This document shows, piece after piece, positions 55,754-64,000 of a DNA stretch of 64,000 nucleotides; within the stretch, counting starts at the first letter, position 1, and each line of letters starts with the position of its first letter. Origin of the DNA: Ignavibacteriales bacterium (GTDB taxonomy: Bacteria; Bacteroidota; Ignavibacteria; Ignavibacteriales; Melioribacteraceae). The DNA is taken from assembly GCA_026390795.1 (NCBI GenBank), contig JAPLFG010000003.1:992001-1056000 (forward strand). The letters are read 5' to 3'. Position numbers and translations under genes: made by a program. A model generated the notes under the pieces. The model had not been told where the DNA came from. It searched no databases and saw only the letters and a program-made list of their open reading frames with translations.

Positions 55754-56848
55754 TTAGGAAACAGAAACACCAATAAGCTTACCAATACCAAAAGTTATTG
55801 ATGCCGCCGCTAAGCCGAAAAACACTTGTCTCAATCCACTGAACCAAACATTTTTCCCGGTAAACAATGTTATGGCTGCGCCAATCAAAAAAAGTCCAAC
55901 TGCACTTAATGAAACGCTTATTACTATTGCCTGCATTCCGTTTGTAAACATAAACGGTAGTACAGGAATAACAGCTCCGACCGAGAATAATATAAACGAA
56001 TAAATAGCTGCCTCAACCGCAGAACCCTTTAGTTCTTCGGCATTAATTCCTAATTCTTCTCTAACTAATATTTCATGCGCATGACTTGTGTCTTTAATTA
56101 TCTCGGCTGCCATTTGATATGCTTGATCTTCCGGAATTCCCTTTGCCATATAGATTAATGCCAATTCTTTCATTTCACCTTCGGGATTTGTTTCCAGTTC
56201 TTCCATTTCAATCTGCATCTGGTTTTCGTAAAGTTCCTGCGAACTCTTCACCGAAATCCATTCTCCCAAAGACATTGATAATGCCCCGGCTAATAAACCG
56301 GCAAGTCCGGCTAATAAAACTCCTTGCTGTCCTGCAGTTGCCCCGGCTATTCCCATTACCAAACTAAAATTGGAGACTAAACCGTCATTTCCTCCTAAGA
56401 CTGCCGCTCTAATTGCATTTCCTCCAACTGAACGGTGTCTGCTTTCAAATTTTGAAAGTTGTGTTCCCGTTACCTTTTCTTCTTTTTCAAGGATTGACCG
56501 GAGTATTTTTACATGGTTTGTTTCTGTACCAGTTATTTCTTGATTCATATTTTTCTTTGTTGTGATGATGGCATTCGAAATGCTTTTTTCGGTATCCATC
56601 AAAACACCCAACACATAATCATACCCGAATATTTTACCAATCGTATCGAAAGTTTTTGCTCTCCAGGATGGCTGAATTAAATTTTCAAGACTTATATTTT
56701 CTTTTTTTGCGAAAGCTTCGGCATGACCTTTTTCAATACCGCTCATTTGTCTGAACACGTTTGCGATTGTCGGATCCGCCTCATGCTCGGCAAGTTTTTG
56801 GTATAGAAAACAAGCGTCAATTTCCGTCTGAATATTTTTATTTTTCAT
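55754..56848 (-). CDS. MbfA-like ferritin-VIT iron/manganese transporter
   Basis: The 364-residue protein has an N-terminal ferritin-like (rubrerythrin-type) domain with ExxH pairs E39/H42 (IEKGHAEAF) and E109/H112 (ETNHVKIL). A CCC1/VIT1-type membrane domain follows from about 140, with RAAVLGGNDGLVSNFSLVMGIAGA and ALSMSLGEWISVKSSQELYE, and five helices. Relatives such as MbfA of Bradyrhizobium export iron and protect against iron or peroxide stress. The diiron ligands appear intact. It is a single gene with a heptamer repeat array 26 bp upstream of its start codon. Confidence 0.85.
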   Translation of the reverse strand: MKNKNIQTEIDACFLYQKLAEHEADPTIANVFRQMSGIEKGHAEAFAKKENISLENLIQPSWRAKTFDTIGKIFGYDYVLGVLMDTEKSISNAIITTKKNMNQEITGTETNHVKILRSILEKEEKVTGTQLSKFESRHRSVGGNAIRAAVLGGNDGLVSNFSLVMGIAGATAGQQGVLLAGLAGLLAGALSMSLGEWISVKSSQELYENQMQIEMEELETNPEGEMKELALIYMAKGIPEDQAYQMAAEIIKDTSHAHEILVREELGINAEELKGSAVEAAIYSFILFSVGAVIPVLPFMFTNGMQAIVISVSLSAVGLFLIGAAITLFTGKNVWFSGLRQVFFGLAAASITFGIGKLIGVSVS

Positions 56849-56874
56849 TTGGATGCCTTAAAAACTGAAAGTCA

Positions 56875-56909
56875 TTAGCAATTAGCTGTTAGCTGTTAGC
56901 TGTTAGCTA
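56875..56909. repeat. Heptamer repeat array
   Basis: Five 7-bp units in phase: TTAGCAA, TTAGCTG, TTAGCTG, TTAGCTG, TTAGCTA. It lies between the MbfA-like gene and the triple-fusion gene on the same strand, immediately after the fusion's stop codon. Confidence 0.8.
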
Positions 56910-56914
56910 AAAAT

Positions 56915-59296
56915 CTATTTTATTATTTCTATTTCATAAACCAGAGTTGTGTTTGGTGAAATTACAAACCTTTTTTTGCCAGGAATTGATTTACCGTAAA
57001 ATCCATTTGATCCGTAAGCAATAGAAGACGGTACAATTACGGTTCGTACTTCGCCCTGCTTCATATCTGCTAATGCTTCATCAAGACCGGGATTAATTTT
57101 TGTTTTACCAATTGTGTATTCAAAAACTTCGGAAGTCTCAATTGCATCCGGTTTACCGTCAATACTTGTGCTGACGAATTCACGCCCATTCAATAAAAAT
57201 TTTCCTGTGTATTTAACAGTTAGAATAGATCCGTTCTGCGGTTTATTTCCGGTACCTTCTTTTTTAATAATATATTTTATTCCACCAGGAGTTTCTACCG
57301 CATTGGGAAAATCGCTCTTTATCTTTTCGGATTCATCGTTACTTCTTTTTTCATCATCGGCTTTTACTTTTAGTTTTGCTTCTTCAACCATTTTTTTAAA
57401 TGATTCATCGGTAACTTTAAAATTATTCGCATCCTCGCCGATTCGTGTTATGCTCAAACTTTTAATTGTATCGCCCTGAACAATTTTATTTACAACATCC
57501 ATTCCATCAGCAACAGAGCCGAATAAAGTATAATTGCCGTCAAGATAAGATCGGTCACCTAGTGTAATATAAAATTGACTTCCATTTGTATTCGGTCCCG
57601 CATTTGCCATTCCCAGCATCCCAGCTCTCCCGTGATTCAACCCTGTATAAATTTCATTAGGAAATTCATAACCCGGACCTTCCAAAGTATCTTTACTTAC
57701 AGGCATTCCGGCTTGGATAACATGCCCGGGCACAACACGGTGCCAGAGACTTCCGTTAAAGTAAGGCTTGCCCTCAGCAATTGCGGTATTTTTAATCTTG
57801 CCTTCTGCAAGTCCCACGAAATTAGCGACTGTCATCGGAACATTTTTATAATCTAAGTTGAGAGTTATTCTTCCTTTATTAGTATTAAGATCTGCATAAA
57901 TTCCATCTGGTAAAAAAGCGCCTTCTCTCGGAAGAAGATGATCTAAGTTTGCAATTCCATATGCCATTAGAGCAATTTTAATTGCGGCGTCTTCTTCTGC
58001 ATCCGGTATTATTTCATCGTATGTATCTGCCGGAGTGTGCCATGTCTTTCCATAAGCTTGAGGACCTTGAGAGCGAAGTCCCGGTGTTGGCACTCCTTCC
58101 ATCAAGAAGGAAAAGCTATCCGTTCCGCCCCGTCCGGCTTTTCTGAATGGACTACTCTCTGAAAAAGCTAAGGGATACTTTAGATTCGCGCTTTCAATTG
58201 TTGAAATAATATTTTTGAAATCATTTGCCATTACTTTAGGCACCGAGATTCCAACTATCGGATTGGTTCCAAAATCTTTGTTAATCATTGCGGAAATTTT
58301 TCCAAGAAGATCTTTGTTTTTATTCACCCACGATTTTGATCCTACTAACCCGCGTTCTTCATTAGCAAATAAAATAAGAATGATTGTTCTTTTCGGTTTA
58401 GCTCCCGCTTTCATCAGCATCCGAACAGCTTCCATCATTGGGCTAACACCAGAAGCATTATCAACTGCACCGGTCGCAACATCATAAGAATCAAGATGTG
58501 CACCGAGCACAACATATTCATCGGAAATATCTTCGCCGGGAATTGTTGCGACCACATTATGATATTTTATTGGTCCCGGTTTGAAAAAATTCCGGACGTC
58601 AAATTCAAGAATTACTTCTTCATTCTTTTCAACCATCGCCTTTATTTCGTTGAATTGTGTATTTACTAATTTAATGTCGCAGAGAGTTGGAAGATTGTCC
58701 CATGAATTAACACAGCGCGAATCCAAACACCGGATCGGTACTTTAGTTAATTGAATTGTCCCTAATGCACCAACAGCGTTTAATTTTTTTGTAAGCGAAA
58801 CAACGGAATCACGGTCGCGCGGCCATCCGGTATTTTCTCCTTCAATTAAAACCCATGCGCCTTTCATTTTACTTTTCATCGAATCGAATTGCACATCTGT
58901 CTTTGGCATAATAACCACATGCCCGCGTTGAACTCCTTTTGTTCCTGCCGTATAAGAAGGCGTAACGAATTCCAAATTTTTCATTTCCGGTTTAATCATT
59001 TTACCAAACCAAGGACCACGGTTAAATCCAACCGGAAACTCGCCAACTTCATCCAGCTTAACTTCTAATCCCCAGCTTTTTAATTCACTCATTACCCAAT
59101 TGCAAGCAGTCTGGTAAGCGTCGGATCCGGTAATTCTTCCTCCGATTCTGTTGCAAAGAATATCCTGATGACGCATCGTTTGGTTGTCTGATTTTCCTAT
59201 CTCAATAATTTTTTGAACAACGGGATCTTGTTGTGAGGAGACAACTGTGGTCAAAACAAATAAAATGAAAAATAAACTTTGGAATAAACGTTTCAT
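56915..59296 (-). CDS. Exported M28 peptidase-cyclophilin-FKBP fusion protein
   Basis: The 793-residue protein has a signal peptide (about 1-21) and three enzyme domains. Residues ~25-455 are an M28 aminopeptidase/carboxypeptidase: HLDSYD (about 266), GAVDNASG, NEERGLVGS (catalytic Glu) and WHTPADTYD (about 418). Residues ~464-620 are a cyclophilin-type peptidyl-prolyl isomerase with FNGSLWHRVVPGHVIQAG, MANAGPNTNGSQFYI and LDGNYTLFGSV. Residues ~690-793 are an FKBP-type isomerase: GSILTVKYTGKFLLNG, KINPGLDEALADMKQGE and SSIAYGSNGFYGKS. A Lys/Glu-rich linker joins the last two. The peptidase would cut peptides and the isomerases would fold or relax prolyl bonds. All domains look complete; the combined role is inferred. 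Confidence 0.93.
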   Translation of the reverse strand: MKRLFQSLFFILFVLTTVVSSQQDPVVQKIIEIGKSDNQTMRHQDILCNRIGGRITGSDAYQTACNWVMSELKSWGLEVKLDEVGEFPVGFNRGPWFGKMIKPEMKNLEFVTPSYTAGTKGVQRGHVVIMPKTDVQFDSMKSKMKGAWVLIEGENTGWPRDRDSVVSLTKKLNAVGALGTIQLTKVPIRCLDSRCVNSWDNLPTLCDIKLVNTQFNEIKAMVEKNEEVILEFDVRNFFKPGPIKYHNVVATIPGEDISDEYVVLGAHLDSYDVATGAVDNASGVSPMMEAVRMLMKAGAKPKRTIILILFANEERGLVGSKSWVNKNKDLLGKISAMINKDFGTNPIVGISVPKVMANDFKNIISTIESANLKYPLAFSESSPFRKAGRGGTDSFSFLMEGVPTPGLRSQGPQAYGKTWHTPADTYDEIIPDAEEDAAIKIALMAYGIANLDHLLPREGAFLPDGIYADLNTNKGRITLNLDYKNVPMTVANFVGLAEGKIKNTAIAEGKPYFNGSLWHRVVPGHVIQAGMPVSKDTLEGPGYEFPNEIYTGLNHGRAGMLGMANAGPNTNGSQFYITLGDRSYLDGNYTLFGSVADGMDVVNKIVQGDTIKSLSITRIGEDANNFKVTDESFKKMVEEAKLKVKADDEKRSNDESEKIKSDFPNAVETPGGIKYIIKKEGTGNKPQNGSILTVKYTGKFLLNGREFVSTSIDGKPDAIETSEVFEYTIGKTKINPGLDEALADMKQGEVRTVIVPSSIAYGSNGFYGKSIPGKKRFVISPNTTLVYEIEIIK

Positions 59297-59600: not shown

Positions 59601-62600
59601 ATGCAAAAGAAAATTATTTTTCTATGCGCCGGCTTTCTTGCAATATGCACATCATATAAGATACAAGCCCAGTCCGGGACGGCACTTACATTTAGCGAGA
59701 TCATGTTTTACCCGAGTGAGACCAACGGCGAGTTTGTCGAAATTTATAATACATCTACTACTGAAACGGTGGATCTTGCCAACTACAAATTCAAATACTC
59801 TACATCGTCAAATAATAATATTGTGTCATTCATCGGCGGCACCTTATTGGGTCCCGGTAAATTCGCAGTCATTCTGCAGGGGAATTATGACTACAATAAC
59901 GGAATTTATAAAACAATAATTCCCACCGGAGTAATTGTTCTTAAGATAAGCACAAATAATTTTGGCTCCTCGGGAATGGCAAATACAACAAACCGGGATG
60001 TATCTCTCATAAATTCTTCCGGTCAAATAGTTGATACTTATACGTACTCTGCAAATAACACAACAGGTCTTTCCGATGAGAAAGTACTTCTTGGTAAAGA
60101 CAATTCTATTTCAAACTGGAAAAATTCGATCAGACTTCATGGAACACCGGGAAATAAAAACTCTGTATCGCAGCCAGATTATGATTTACAATTAACATTT
60201 TCGGGAATAACCCCGGAAGCGCCAACAGCAGAAGACTCGGTAAAAATAACAATGCTTTTAAAAAATTTAGGAAAATTAACCGCTGCTAATTTTTCCGTAA
60301 CCATTTTTAATGATGCCAACAATGATTCCGTCAGTCAACCGGAAGAATTGATATTAAGTAAAAATTACTCCTCTCTCGCAAATGGCGACTCTCTCATTAT
60401 TCAAAAAACAATTTTCGCAGATACAGCCGGGAATTATCATTTCATTGGCACTGTAAATTTTGCCCAAGATGAAAATGCAACAAATAATAATTTGTTTATC
60501 AAATTCACAGTAACAGAAAGACCGGCAACTAAGAATGAAATAGTTATTAATGAAGTTATGTACGCGCCTGCAAGCGGTGAACCGGAATGGATCGAATTGT
60601 ATAATAAATCGAATAGAGTTTTTAATCTTAAGAATTGGAAGATCGGCGATAACACTTCCCTCTCTACAATTTCAACAATTGATTTTGTCTTGAATCCAGG
60701 AGAATATTTGGTAATCAGTAACAATGTTTCGATTTCAGATTACTATGAGATTCCATCAAAATTTATAATAAAATCACTTCCTACTCTTAGCAACACCGGG
60801 GACGATGTCATTTTAAAAAGTAATTATGGGAAAACAATTGATTCACTTAAGTATTCATCCGCTTGGGGCGGAAGCACCGGAAGTAAATCATTGGAAAGAG
60901 TAAATGCCGATGATTCATCAATTGATTCCACAAACTGGAAAACATGCAAAAGTAAATTTAGAGCTACCCCGGGGAAAATAAATTCTGTTGTTCCAAAAAT
61001 TTTCGATTTGTCTATTATAAATTTTTCATCTTCTTCAAGATATGCTGAAGTAGGGAGAAGTTTTACATCAAAAATCATAGTAGAAAATTTAGGAAGCGGC
61101 TCCGTTCAAAACTATTCCTTAAGACTTTATTATGACAGTAATCTGGACTCACTTGAGCAAGCCAATGAACTTGTTAGTGAAAAGAGCGGGACAATTATTG
61201 CCGCAGGTGATTCGGTTGAATTCCAATTTACAATTACGAATTATATTCAGGGGATAAATCAATTCATAGCTAAAATTGAATTTGCACAGGATGAATATTT
61301 TGAAAATAACACCGCTACATTCAAAATAAACGGTGTTTTTATTAATGAACAAAAAGGCGACCTGGTTGTGAACGAGATTATGTACGGACCCGCTTCCCCG
61401 GAACAAGAGTGGATCGAAATTTACAATTCAAGCACGAAACAAATTAATTTATGCGGTTATAAAATTGCAAATCATTCAGATACAGCCAAAGTCATTAGCG
61501 GTAATATTGTTCTCCAGCCAGATGAATATTTAGCTATTGCGAGGGACACATTGAGTTTTTCAAAGTATCCTAAGATTCCAACGTTATTAATTGCATCTTT
61601 TCCGTCGTTGAATAATACAATAGATAAATTGATTCTTCTCGATTCTCTGAACCGTGTTATAGATTCGTTTGAGTATAAGTCGAATTGGGGAGGCAATTCT
61701 GGCAAGTCTTTGGAAAGGATAAATGCGGCAGTCTCTTCAACCGATTCTACTAATTGGAAAACGACGGAGAGTCTGAATGGGGCAACTCCCGGTTTTGTGA
61801 ATTCTGTCTCGAAGAAAAATTATGATCTGGCAATAACTGATTTTTCATCCGTTCCGCTCAGTCCGATTGCGGGTGAAAAAGTATTAATGAAAATTGATAT
61901 TCAAAACGCTGGCAAGCGCATCTTAACATTTAAAATTATTTTAAGTGAAATCAAACCAGATGGAAATAAAATTCAAGTTGAGGAATTTATACCATCAACT
62001 GAGTCAAACATTAATCCAGGCGATAAAATTAGCGTAACTTTTAATTATAAAATAGAACACCTTATAGACAAAAGAACTTTCGAAGCGATAATTATCTGTG
62101 CCGGTGATGAGGATTTAAATAATAACATTTATTCTTTATGTATTTCGCCAGGCTATACCTTCCATTCAGTCCTTCTAAACGAAATCATGTACAATCCGGT
62201 TAACGGTGAGCCTGAATGGATAGAACTCTATAACAATTTGGAATTCGACGTTGATCTTGCGAACTGGTCAATCACTGATCTTTTAACAAACCCATTAAAA
62301 ACAAAAATTGAGTCAAATGATTACATCTTTCCAGCAAAAACATTTTTAGTGATCGCAAAAGATTCGAGTATTGTAAATTTTCACCGCGTAATTTCCTCAA
62401 AGATTATGGTCTCATCATTTGCTAATCTAAACAATGATGCCGACGGACTTATTATCAAGGATTACCGCGGTGTTGCAATTGATTCAATGAAGTATGAAAT
62501 ATCTTGGGGCGGAATAAATGGAAAATCACTTGAGCGCAAAGCAATTTCTGCTTCTTCTTTAGATAAAAATAATTGGGGTTCTTCAAAAGATCTGGAACTC

Positions 62601-64000
62601 AGCACACCGGGAAGAATAAATAGTATTACATCAAAAAAAATTGATCTATTCATCAAAGCAATCTTTTCTCAAACACCATACCCGGCTTATAATGAAGAAA
62701 TAGATCTTGCCGCAAAAGTTATAAACAGCGGGACAAATACGTCCGGCAATTTCATTGTTCACTTTTTTCTTCTTTCAAATAACCAATGGAATTACTTTAG
62801 CGGCGGCAGCGGTAAAAATATTCCGGCTAACGATTCAGCTATTGTCATTTCAAATGCAAAATTACAGTTGAACGAGACAAAAACTGTTATGTGCAAAATT
62901 TTATTTTCCGAAGATGAGGATACACTCAACAATACTTTTGTGGCTGATGTTATTCCCGGGTTAAAACGGAATACTATTCTTATCAACGAAATTATGTTCG
63001 ATCCGGCAACGGGCGAATCGGAATGGATCGAAATTGTGAACGCGTCGACAGATCCGGTAAATTTGAATAACTGGCAGATAAGCGATCTGCTTCCCTCTCC
63101 TACAAAATCAATAATCACAACAAAAGATGTTTTATTAAATCCGGGCGAGTTTGCTATTATCGCATATGATTCTCTGCGTTATCATTATTTTCCACCGAAG
63201 AAATTTTTCCAGGCTAAGTTCGGTTCGTTAAGTTCGATGGATGGATTATTAATATATGATTTTCGCGGAGCGGTAATTGATAGTGTGAAATACAATTCGG
63301 CTTGGGGATGCGATAAAGGTTTTTCGCTCGAAAGAATTTCAATAAATAAACCCACAGCCGATTCTACAAATTGGTGTTCATCAATAAGTTTAAATTGCGC
63401 ATCACCCGGAATTAGAAATTCGGTTATCAATCTGCCGAAATATTGTTCCGGTTCAATGATGATCAATGAGATTATGTTCGATCCGGCTGCCGGAAATTCG
63501 GAATACCTTGAATTTTATAATACGTCGGGAGATTCCGTTCAACTTGCCGGCTTGCAAGTAAAAATTGGCATTACGGATAAATACAAATTAAAAAAAATAC
63601 ATTTAATGCTTCCTCCAAAAAAATATTTCGTACTGGCGTCAGATTCATCGGTTTATAATAATTACTCCTGGTTAAAAACAGAATCCTATTCAAACATTAC
63701 TGGGAGTTCTTCTTTGAGTTTATTGAATGATGCTTCAATGATTGTGCTGAAAGATTTCTACGGTACAACATTAGATTCGCTAACATATTCATCGGGCTGG
63801 CATAGTAAAAATGTCATAACAACAAAAAACAGATCTTTAGAAAAATTAAATCCTGAATTCAATTCTGATATCCGTTCAAATTGGAATACTTCGGTCGGTG
63901 AATTCGGCGCTACACCCGGTAAAGAGAATTCTATTTTCTCACAAAATTTAGTAAGCGAGTCGAAAGCAACAATAAGCCCAAATCCGTTTTCTCCCGACGG
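59601..64000 (+). CDS. Large exported lamin-tail repeat protein (C-terminus beyond window)
   Basis: An uninterrupted frame from ATG 59601 to the window end gives 1466 codons with no stop. It opens with a signal peptide ending near KIQAQSG. Six lamin-tail domains follow, starting at about 59681, 60541, 61369, 62166, 62973 and 63460. Each opens with NEIMYxPxxGExEWIExYN and ends in SLERxN, DSTNW and TPGKxNSV. CARDB-like Ig modules (FSGITPEAPTAEDSVKITM and similar) lie between the first five. The last residues, ATISPNPFSPDG, begin the typical linker to a FlgD-like or type IX secretion C-terminal domain. Such proteins are surface-attached or secreted; their ligand is unknown. No good ribosome site precedes the ATG. 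Confidence 0.92.
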   Translation, partial: MQKKIIFLCAGFLAICTSYKIQAQSGTALTFSEIMFYPSETNGEFVEIYNTSTTETVDLANYKFKYSTSSNNNIVSFIGGTLLGPGKFAVILQGNYDYNNGIYKTIIPTGVIVLKISTNNFGSSGMANTTNRDVSLINSSGQIVDTYTYSANNTTGLSDEKVLLGKDNSISNWKNSIRLHGTPGNKNSVSQPDYDLQLTFSGITPEAPTAEDSVKITMLLKNLGKLTAANFSVTIFNDANNDSVSQPEELILSKNYSSLANGDSLIIQKTIFADTAGNYHFIGTVNFAQDENATNNNLFIKFTVTERPATKNEIVINEVMYAPASGEPEWIELYNKSNRVFNLKNWKIGDNTSLSTISTIDFVLNPGEYLVISNNVSISDYYEIPSKFIIKSLPTLSNTGDDVILKSNYGKTIDSLKYSSAWGGSTGSKSLERVNADDSSIDSTNWKTCKSKFRATPGKINSVVPKIFDLSIINFSSSSRYAEVGRSFTSKIIVENLGSGSVQNYSLRLYYDSNLDSLEQANELVSEKSGTIIAAGDSVEFQFTITNYIQGINQFIAKIEFAQDEYFENNTATFKINGVFINEQKGDLVVNEIMYGPASPEQEWIEIYNSSTKQINLCGYKIANHSDTAKVISGNIVLQPDEYLAIARDTLSFSKYPKIPTLLIASFPSLNNTIDKLILLDSLNRVIDSFEYKSNWGGNSGKSLERINAAVSSTDSTNWKTTESLNGATPGFVNSVSKKNYDLAITDFSSVPLSPIAGEKVLMKIDIQNAGKRILTFKIILSEIKPDGNKIQVEEFIPSTESNINPGDKISVTFNYKIEHLIDKRTFEAIIICAGDEDLNNNIYSLCISPGYTFHSVLLNEIMYNPVNGEPEWIELYNNLEFDVDLANWSITDLLTNPLKTKIESNDYIFPAKTFLVIAKDSSIVNFHRVISSKIMVSSFANLNNDADGLIIKDYRGVAIDSMKYEISWGGINGKSLERKAISASSLDKNNWGSSKDLELSTPGRINSITSKKIDLFIKAIFSQTPYPAYNEEIDLAAKVINSGTNTSGNFIVHFFLLSNNQWNYFSGGSGKNIPANDSAIVISNAKLQLNETKTVMCKILFSEDEDTLNNTFVADVIPGLKRNTILINEIMFDPATGESEWIEIVNASTDPVNLNNWQISDLLPSPTKSIITTKDVLLNPGEFAIIAYDSLRYHYFPPKKFFQAKFGSLSSMDGLLIYDFRGAVIDSVKYNSAWGCDKGFSLERISINKPTADSTNWCSSISLNCASPGIRNSVINLPKYCSGSMMINEIMFDPAAGNSEYLEFYNTSGDSVQLAGLQVKIGITDKYKLKKIHLMLPPKKYFVLASDSSVYNNYSWLKTESYSNITGSSSLSLLNDASMIVLKDFYGTTLDSLTYSSGWHSKNVITTKNRSLEKLNPEFNSDIRSNWNTSVGEFGATPGKENSIFSQNLVSESKATISPNPFSPD

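Follow-up and report, generated by a model that had tools for sequence, protein, structure and literature searches.

In the genome of an Ignavibacteriales bacterium, one gene joins an M28 peptidase, a cyclophilin and an FKBP in a single chain, and match spans and reading frames place the junction between peptidase and cyclophilin in 21 of 79 genomes of the same family, across five genera. Cyclophilin-linker-FKBP chains already form a published class of dual-family immunophilin, the CFBPs, as described in PMC6316441 and PMC5852385, so only the added peptidase is unusual. An earlier note on this DNA had called the whole triple unusual, which holds for the peptidase but not for the cyclophilin-FKBP pair; the peptidase in front of the immunophilin tail is the new part. 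We tentatively propose, at somewhat less than even confidence, that the product may be a periplasmic M28 peptidase whose tethered chaperone or isomerase tail serves the substrates of the peptidase.

Structure and distribution of the fusion gene

The reading frame, which opens with ATG, is real as the earlier note had delimited it, and it lies on a strand which that note had left unnamed (Table 1; the window is the whole stretch of 64,000 nucleotides analysed). Three Pfam domains share this one frame, again as claimed: Peptidase_M28 scores 127.4 bits against a cut-off of 21.3, which places it in family M28, Pro_isomerase 130.3 bits against 21.7, and FKBP_C 67.4 bits against 21.1. Elsewhere FKBP_C scores 58.8 bits in genome G067, 48.2 in G052 and 119 in one chain of family f30. 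The N-terminus looks like a signal peptide by eye and has no lipobox cysteine, which agrees with the suggested export to that extent. Among the fusions this signal peptide is the least conserved part (36% mean pairwise identity) and the cyclophilin the most conserved domain (80%), with the M28 core at 68%, the FKBP at 54% and the linker at 49%.

Table 1. Positions of the fusion gene and the parts of its product within the window
Feature	Position	Strand	Evidence
M28-cyclophilin-FKBP gene, 793 aa	56915..59296	-	ORF, Pfam, orthologues
Putative signal peptide, residues 1-22, without lipobox	59231..59296	-	Translation by eye
M28 peptidase unit, residues 23-455, Pfam core 247-437	57932..59230	-	Pfam, 3iib alignment, conserved residues
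Cyclophilin domain, residues 468-612	57461..57895	-	Pfam, alignment to 1w74, residue tables
Linker, residues 621-675, predicted helix ~630-662	57272..57436	-	Both AlphaFold2 models; weak evidence
FKBP domain, residues 684-791, non-canonical pocket V708, N735, L738, Y787	56924..57247	-	Pfam, residue tables

An assembly error, a frameshift or a chance join as the origin of the gene was ruled out because the M28-cyclophilin junction is kept in 20 other genomes of the family. The fusion is found in 9 of the 12 genomes of its own genus, 5 of 6 in genus g53 (G094 and G095 being cut at contig starts, and G094 retaining no more than roughly the final 10 residues of its M28 unit), 4 of 4 in genus g12, 2 of 2 in genus g8, including G078, and the one genome searched in genus g3, G013, where it lacks the FKBP. 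An FKBP follows the junction in 19 of the 20 other fusion genomes, the exception being G013, and is cut by the contig end in G001 and G002. Two fusion genes that are otherwise normal, in G078 (L027) and G095 (L028), each carry one in-frame TAG, reflecting either sequencing error or decay. Three genomes of the genus of the present genome had no match: G010 (99% complete), G009 (84%) and G011 (72%).

Altogether 24 of the 79 family genomes match at E <= 1e-30, including two with an M28-only gene, namely G023 and G032 (in G032 it stops close to the end of its contig), and G067, which has only the cyclophilin-FKBP part. The earlier note had named separate genes in relatives as evidence against the fusion; such genes exist, as M28-only forms in G023, G032 and G416 and as cyclophilin-FKBP-only forms in G052 and G067, but the fusion is the usual state, found in 21 of the 24 matching family members. 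In a class sample of 391 genomes, 17 match at E <= 1e-45, all from the same family except G052, and the junction is absent outside the family among the matches listed. In a phylum sample of 395 genomes, 146 match at E <= 1e-30, and the listed matches outside the family have either the M28 part or the cyclophilin-FKBP part, none having both; as the list extends to an E-value of about 2.8e-34 and scoring covered the top two candidates in each genome, a fusion that has diverged strongly could be missed. Five close loci lie in named genomes, all of them metagenome genomes, with identities of 91% ('Bacteroidetes bacterium'), 74% ('Ignavibacteriales bacterium'), 73% and 71% (two 'Melioribacter sp.') and 64% ('Ignavibacteria bacterium'); a sixth is a weak M28 match in Olleya.

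All three domains are under purifying selection. In seven close pairs, a simple Nei-Gojobori count gave dN/dS far below 1 for M28 (0.029-0.072), cyclophilin (0.015-0.17) and FKBP (0.065-0.16), values that are rough given that dS often exceeds 1. The AlphaFold2 models were poor, with mean pLDDT of 37.3 (six sequences) and 45.9 (five sequences), so the packing of the domains cannot be read from them. Both models predict the linker helix with low pLDDT over its first two thirds, the ten-residue block means being 36, 49 and 73 in one and about 41, 56 and 79 in the other.

Upstream and divergent from the fusion gene, positions 59601-63998 of the window are occupied by a very large lamin-tail-domain protein that runs off the window, contains six lamin tail domain stretches and a CARDB domain, and is found beside the fusion in several relatives. 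Just downstream and on the same strand as the fusion, positions 55754-56848 encode a VIT1-family protein with a rubrerythrin-like N-terminus, and a short repeat of AGCTAAC units lies between the two genes (56870-56915). When the neighbourhoods of 15 fusion genomes were compared, the lamin-tail gene (C2) and a SpoIID-like gene (C1) each occurred in 9, and at least one of four marker genes (C1-C4) lay near the fusion in 12, with none in G092, G093 or G013. The group on the other side appears, from reading the sequences, to comprise TrhO, SpoIID, BatA and HflX. Serpin genes also occur in the neighbourhood, immediately next to the fusion in G022 and at a distance of one or two ORFs in G091, G064 and G092; the G022 copy (L055 2725-3981), the only one searched with Pfam, scores 376.6 bits, with homologues in L060, L061, L065 and L073. 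Promoter-like and terminator-like sites showed no excess over shuffled sequence.

Active sites of the three domains

The earlier note described three complete enzyme domains, a description that fits the peptidase best. Residues H267, D279, E313, E314, D341 and H420, aligned to the solved structure 3iib, are identical in all 16 full-length fusions (of the 21, four are cut at contig ends and G013 was set aside), and we take this H, D, E, E, D, H series to be the M28 pattern of metal ligands and catalytic Glu. The unit may be akin to carboxypeptidase Q-like enzymes and should be an active exported exopeptidase.

The pockets of the two immunophilin domains were compared across two residue tables, the first holding 20 fusion rows (all but G013), the tail-only G052 and G067, and 18 CFBPs of family f30 (L035 unreadable). 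These f30 chains are short and by eye have no signal peptide, hence a second table that adds G013 and 16 CFBPs of families f30, f27, f28 and f35 (L082 unreadable in the FKBP).

In the cyclophilin, R520, which we equate with Arg55 of human CypA, is Arg in every readable row. Five further pocket positions, assigned by us to CypA 60, 61, 113, 121 and 126, read F60H, M61V, F113Y, W121Y and H126Y relative to human CypA in 20 of 20 fusion rows, while G013 departs from the other fusions with Q, L, Y, A and Y. CFBPs of other families keep F60, M61 and H126 in 33 of 33 chains and F113 in 32 of 33, with W (30) or H (3) at position 121. Four of the five changes, all but that at W121, are thus unlike the 33 readable chains, save for F113Y in one. 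The cyclophilin most likely functions as a prolyl isomerase, although its activity is not certain because five pocket positions differ from human CypA.

The FKBP is where the description fails. We take V708, N735, L738 and Y787 to occupy the places of D37, I56, W59 and F99 of FKBP12. The D37 position holds V, A, F, H or N in all 20 fusions, the I56 position N in 19 of 19 readable fusions, the W59 position L, V, I or F in 19 of 19 and the F99 position Y in 18 of 18, so that the pocket Asp and Ile are replaced in every readable fusion. CFBPs of other families have D in 31 of 32 chains at the first position (E in one), I in 29 and L in 3 at the second, W in 21 of 32 at the third (F in 8, I in 3), and F in 29 and Y in 3 at the fourth. 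Since these chains keep the Asp in 31 of 32 and never have Asn at the Ile position (0 of 32 readable), it is the Asp loss together with the replacement of Ile by Asn that sets this lineage apart. Loss of the Trp was also considered special to the fusions and was dropped once the wider set of CFBPs (f30, f27, f28, f35) had been read: the Trp is replaced in 11 of 15 readable exported-looking CFBPs of other families and, being commonly replaced there, its loss says little about loss of activity. The chains L085-L087 (f28) and L075-L080 and L089-L090 (f30), which by eye start like signal peptides or lipoproteins, often have F or I at this Trp.

Loss of D37 or W59 lowers isomerase activity. In published accounts, D37V weakens rapamycin binding to FKBP12 (PMC9304761) and the FK2 domain of FKBP51/52 has no isomerase activity (PMC5870485). 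Together with its arm, the FKBP most likely serves for binding or oligomerisation and is weak at best as an isomerase, and its low dN/dS in the seven pairs marks it as altered, not decaying. As a whole, the tail should be an isomerase or chaperone made of one fairly canonical and one altered module.

Proposed function and the shedding of domains

In the proposed mechanism, an exported, probably periplasmic, zinc-type M28 exopeptidase would carry a diverged cyclophilin-linker-FKBP unit at its C-terminus. Peptides would be trimmed by the M28 part, the cyclophilin, most likely a working isomerase, would isomerise prolyl bonds, and the FKBP and arm would bind or oligomerise in the manner of MIP and FkpA; the tail would keep chains that are unfolded or contain proline close to the peptidase and in a state that can be cleaved. 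Isomerase-assisted cleavage, which the earlier note had envisaged as the exposure of cleavage sites, is possible for such a chain; the note's second candidate role was that of a quality-control unit. If the tail does assist the peptidase, the fusion would offer a natural example in which prolyl isomerisation and proteolysis are coupled in cis. A stricter form of the idea, which we consider unlikely, is that of an isomerase-coupled exopeptidase in which the cyclophilin turns cis X-Pro bonds to trans for the M28 site, the FKBP arm and altered pocket act as a dimer or substrate clamp, and the enzyme digests proline-rich peptides that stall ordinary exopeptidases. Cooperation of tail and peptidase is weakened as an explanation by the tails without M28 in G052 and G067 and by the M28-only relatives.

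G052, G067 and G013 indicate that domains of the chain can be shed. All 22 lineage tails used fall together, separated by a 100/100 branch from the CFBPs of other families (G013 was left out, and long branches meet here). The tail of G052 (L014/L068) groups with four fusions of the genus of the present genome, G000, G001, G005 and G006, with support of 100/99 in one tree and 83/99 in the other, and the first 105 coding bases of G052 match G004 at 85 of 105 and G002 at 88 of 105, after which the cyclophilin starts. The G052 gene thus has the look of a fusion whose ancestor dropped the M28 in frame. Two features speak against a simple loss. The signal peptide comes closest to those of G004 and G002, and the tail groups with G000, G001, G005 and G006; and both the F60 and the F113 position of the cyclophilin hold F, as in CFBPs of other families, a state that calls for reversals or recombination. 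The placing of G052 in another family may also be a binning error, as the contig is only 4679 bases long, and recombination or a misbinned contig are both possible. In G067 the tail-only gene occupies the same chromosomal place as the fusion, and the tree is compatible with loss or no loss of M28 (AU p 0.186). An M28 tree rooted with the distant M28 sequence L017 was not trusted, its branch being 5.3 long. The G013 frame (L012/L064) stops part-way through the linker that follows the cyclophilin, with no FKBP in frame by Pfam and none by eye in the three forward frames beyond. In G004 (L052 8001-10787) the frame instead continues and adds a domain of the retropepsin-like aspartyl protease kind (PF13975, 32.0 bits, above a cut-off of 28.2), giving a four-domain chain of 928 aa.

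The tails of G052 and G067, kept without M28, and the strong conservation of the cyclophilin could mean that the immunophilin part carries the main function, as a folding helper in the periplasm to which M28 is an optional and easily lost add-on. We regard this as rather unlikely, since all 16 full-length copies keep an intact M28 site, M28 has the lowest dN/dS in three of the seven pairs, G013 lost the FKBP yet kept M28 and cyclophilin, and M28-only genes exist (G023, G032, G416). The close spacing of the first two domains, with the cyclophilin following M28 almost directly, suits a tail that acts as a chaperone in cis, aiding the folding or stability of its own M28 after export with no role towards substrates. 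By eye, the M28-only forms of G023 and G416 also contain an additional segment absent from the fused M28, so the fused and M28-only forms may differ in stability. This account is nonetheless improbable in our judgement: M28-only genes manage without the tail, and the tail persists without M28 in G052 and G067, so it has a use of its own. The independent coming and going of domains, in G052, G067 and G013 and with the aspartyl protease in G004, would be expected of simple co-export, in which unrelated activities share one signal peptide with no cooperation; a junction kept in so many genomes and genera favours some advantage of the join, and co-export seems to us less likely still. A peptidase served by its tethered tail is the reading we tentatively favour.

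Relation to known peptidases and immunophilins

The solved protein most like the M28 unit is 3iib ('Peptidase M28'), the best match over residues 45-450, with which it shares the metal and catalytic residues; unlike the fusion, 3iib is a chain of 444 aa without a cyclophilin-FKBP tail, as the match nearly fills it. Targeted searches of the open-licence PMC literature gave no description of an M28 or other peptidase-cyclophilin fusion in bacteria or of a Melioribacter cyclophilin, and no report of a CFBP with a peptidase in front, the single match being by its listing a periplasmic proteome study; the word 'peptidase' does not occur in the main texts of PMC6316441 and PMC5852385.

Matches to MIP and FkpA chains span the arm and FKBP of the fusion, but the NCBIfam FKBP models, whose cut-offs are 215 and 198, score 41.8 and 29.3 bits, and the fusion differs further in its altered pocket and in an arm joined to a cyclophilin and a peptidase. 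The same arm and FKBP region matches the BamJ family (NCBIfam NF053689) at 46.7 bits, and membership was rejected as this falls below the family cut-off of 100.

The closest comparison is with the CFBPs, whose physiological substrates remain unknown according to PMC6316441. The fusion has the same order of domains in one chain, and its tail is 36-46% identical to chains of other families in the phylum, among the matches listed. Barik's signature residues, as given in PMC5852385, are FHR, MAN, W and H in the cyclophilin and HY and FDSS in the FKBP; in the fusions HR and MAN are kept, the F reads W, the W and H read Y, and FDSS is gone in 20 of 20 rows, and several CFBPs of other families also depart in part from the signature W and FDSS. 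The same paper describes CFBP linkers as intrinsically disordered, which the helix predicted for the fusion linker, mostly at low confidence, does not overturn. Unlike CFBPs, the fusion has an M28 peptidase joined in front, has lost the Asp and Ile of the FKBP pocket and has several changed residues in the cyclophilin pocket, and by its sequence we class the tail as a diverged relative of the CFBPs, not a typical member. The little-studied dual-family immunophilins are thereby widened to include chains that have gained a peptidase and lost FKBP pocket residues in a domain still under purifying selection.
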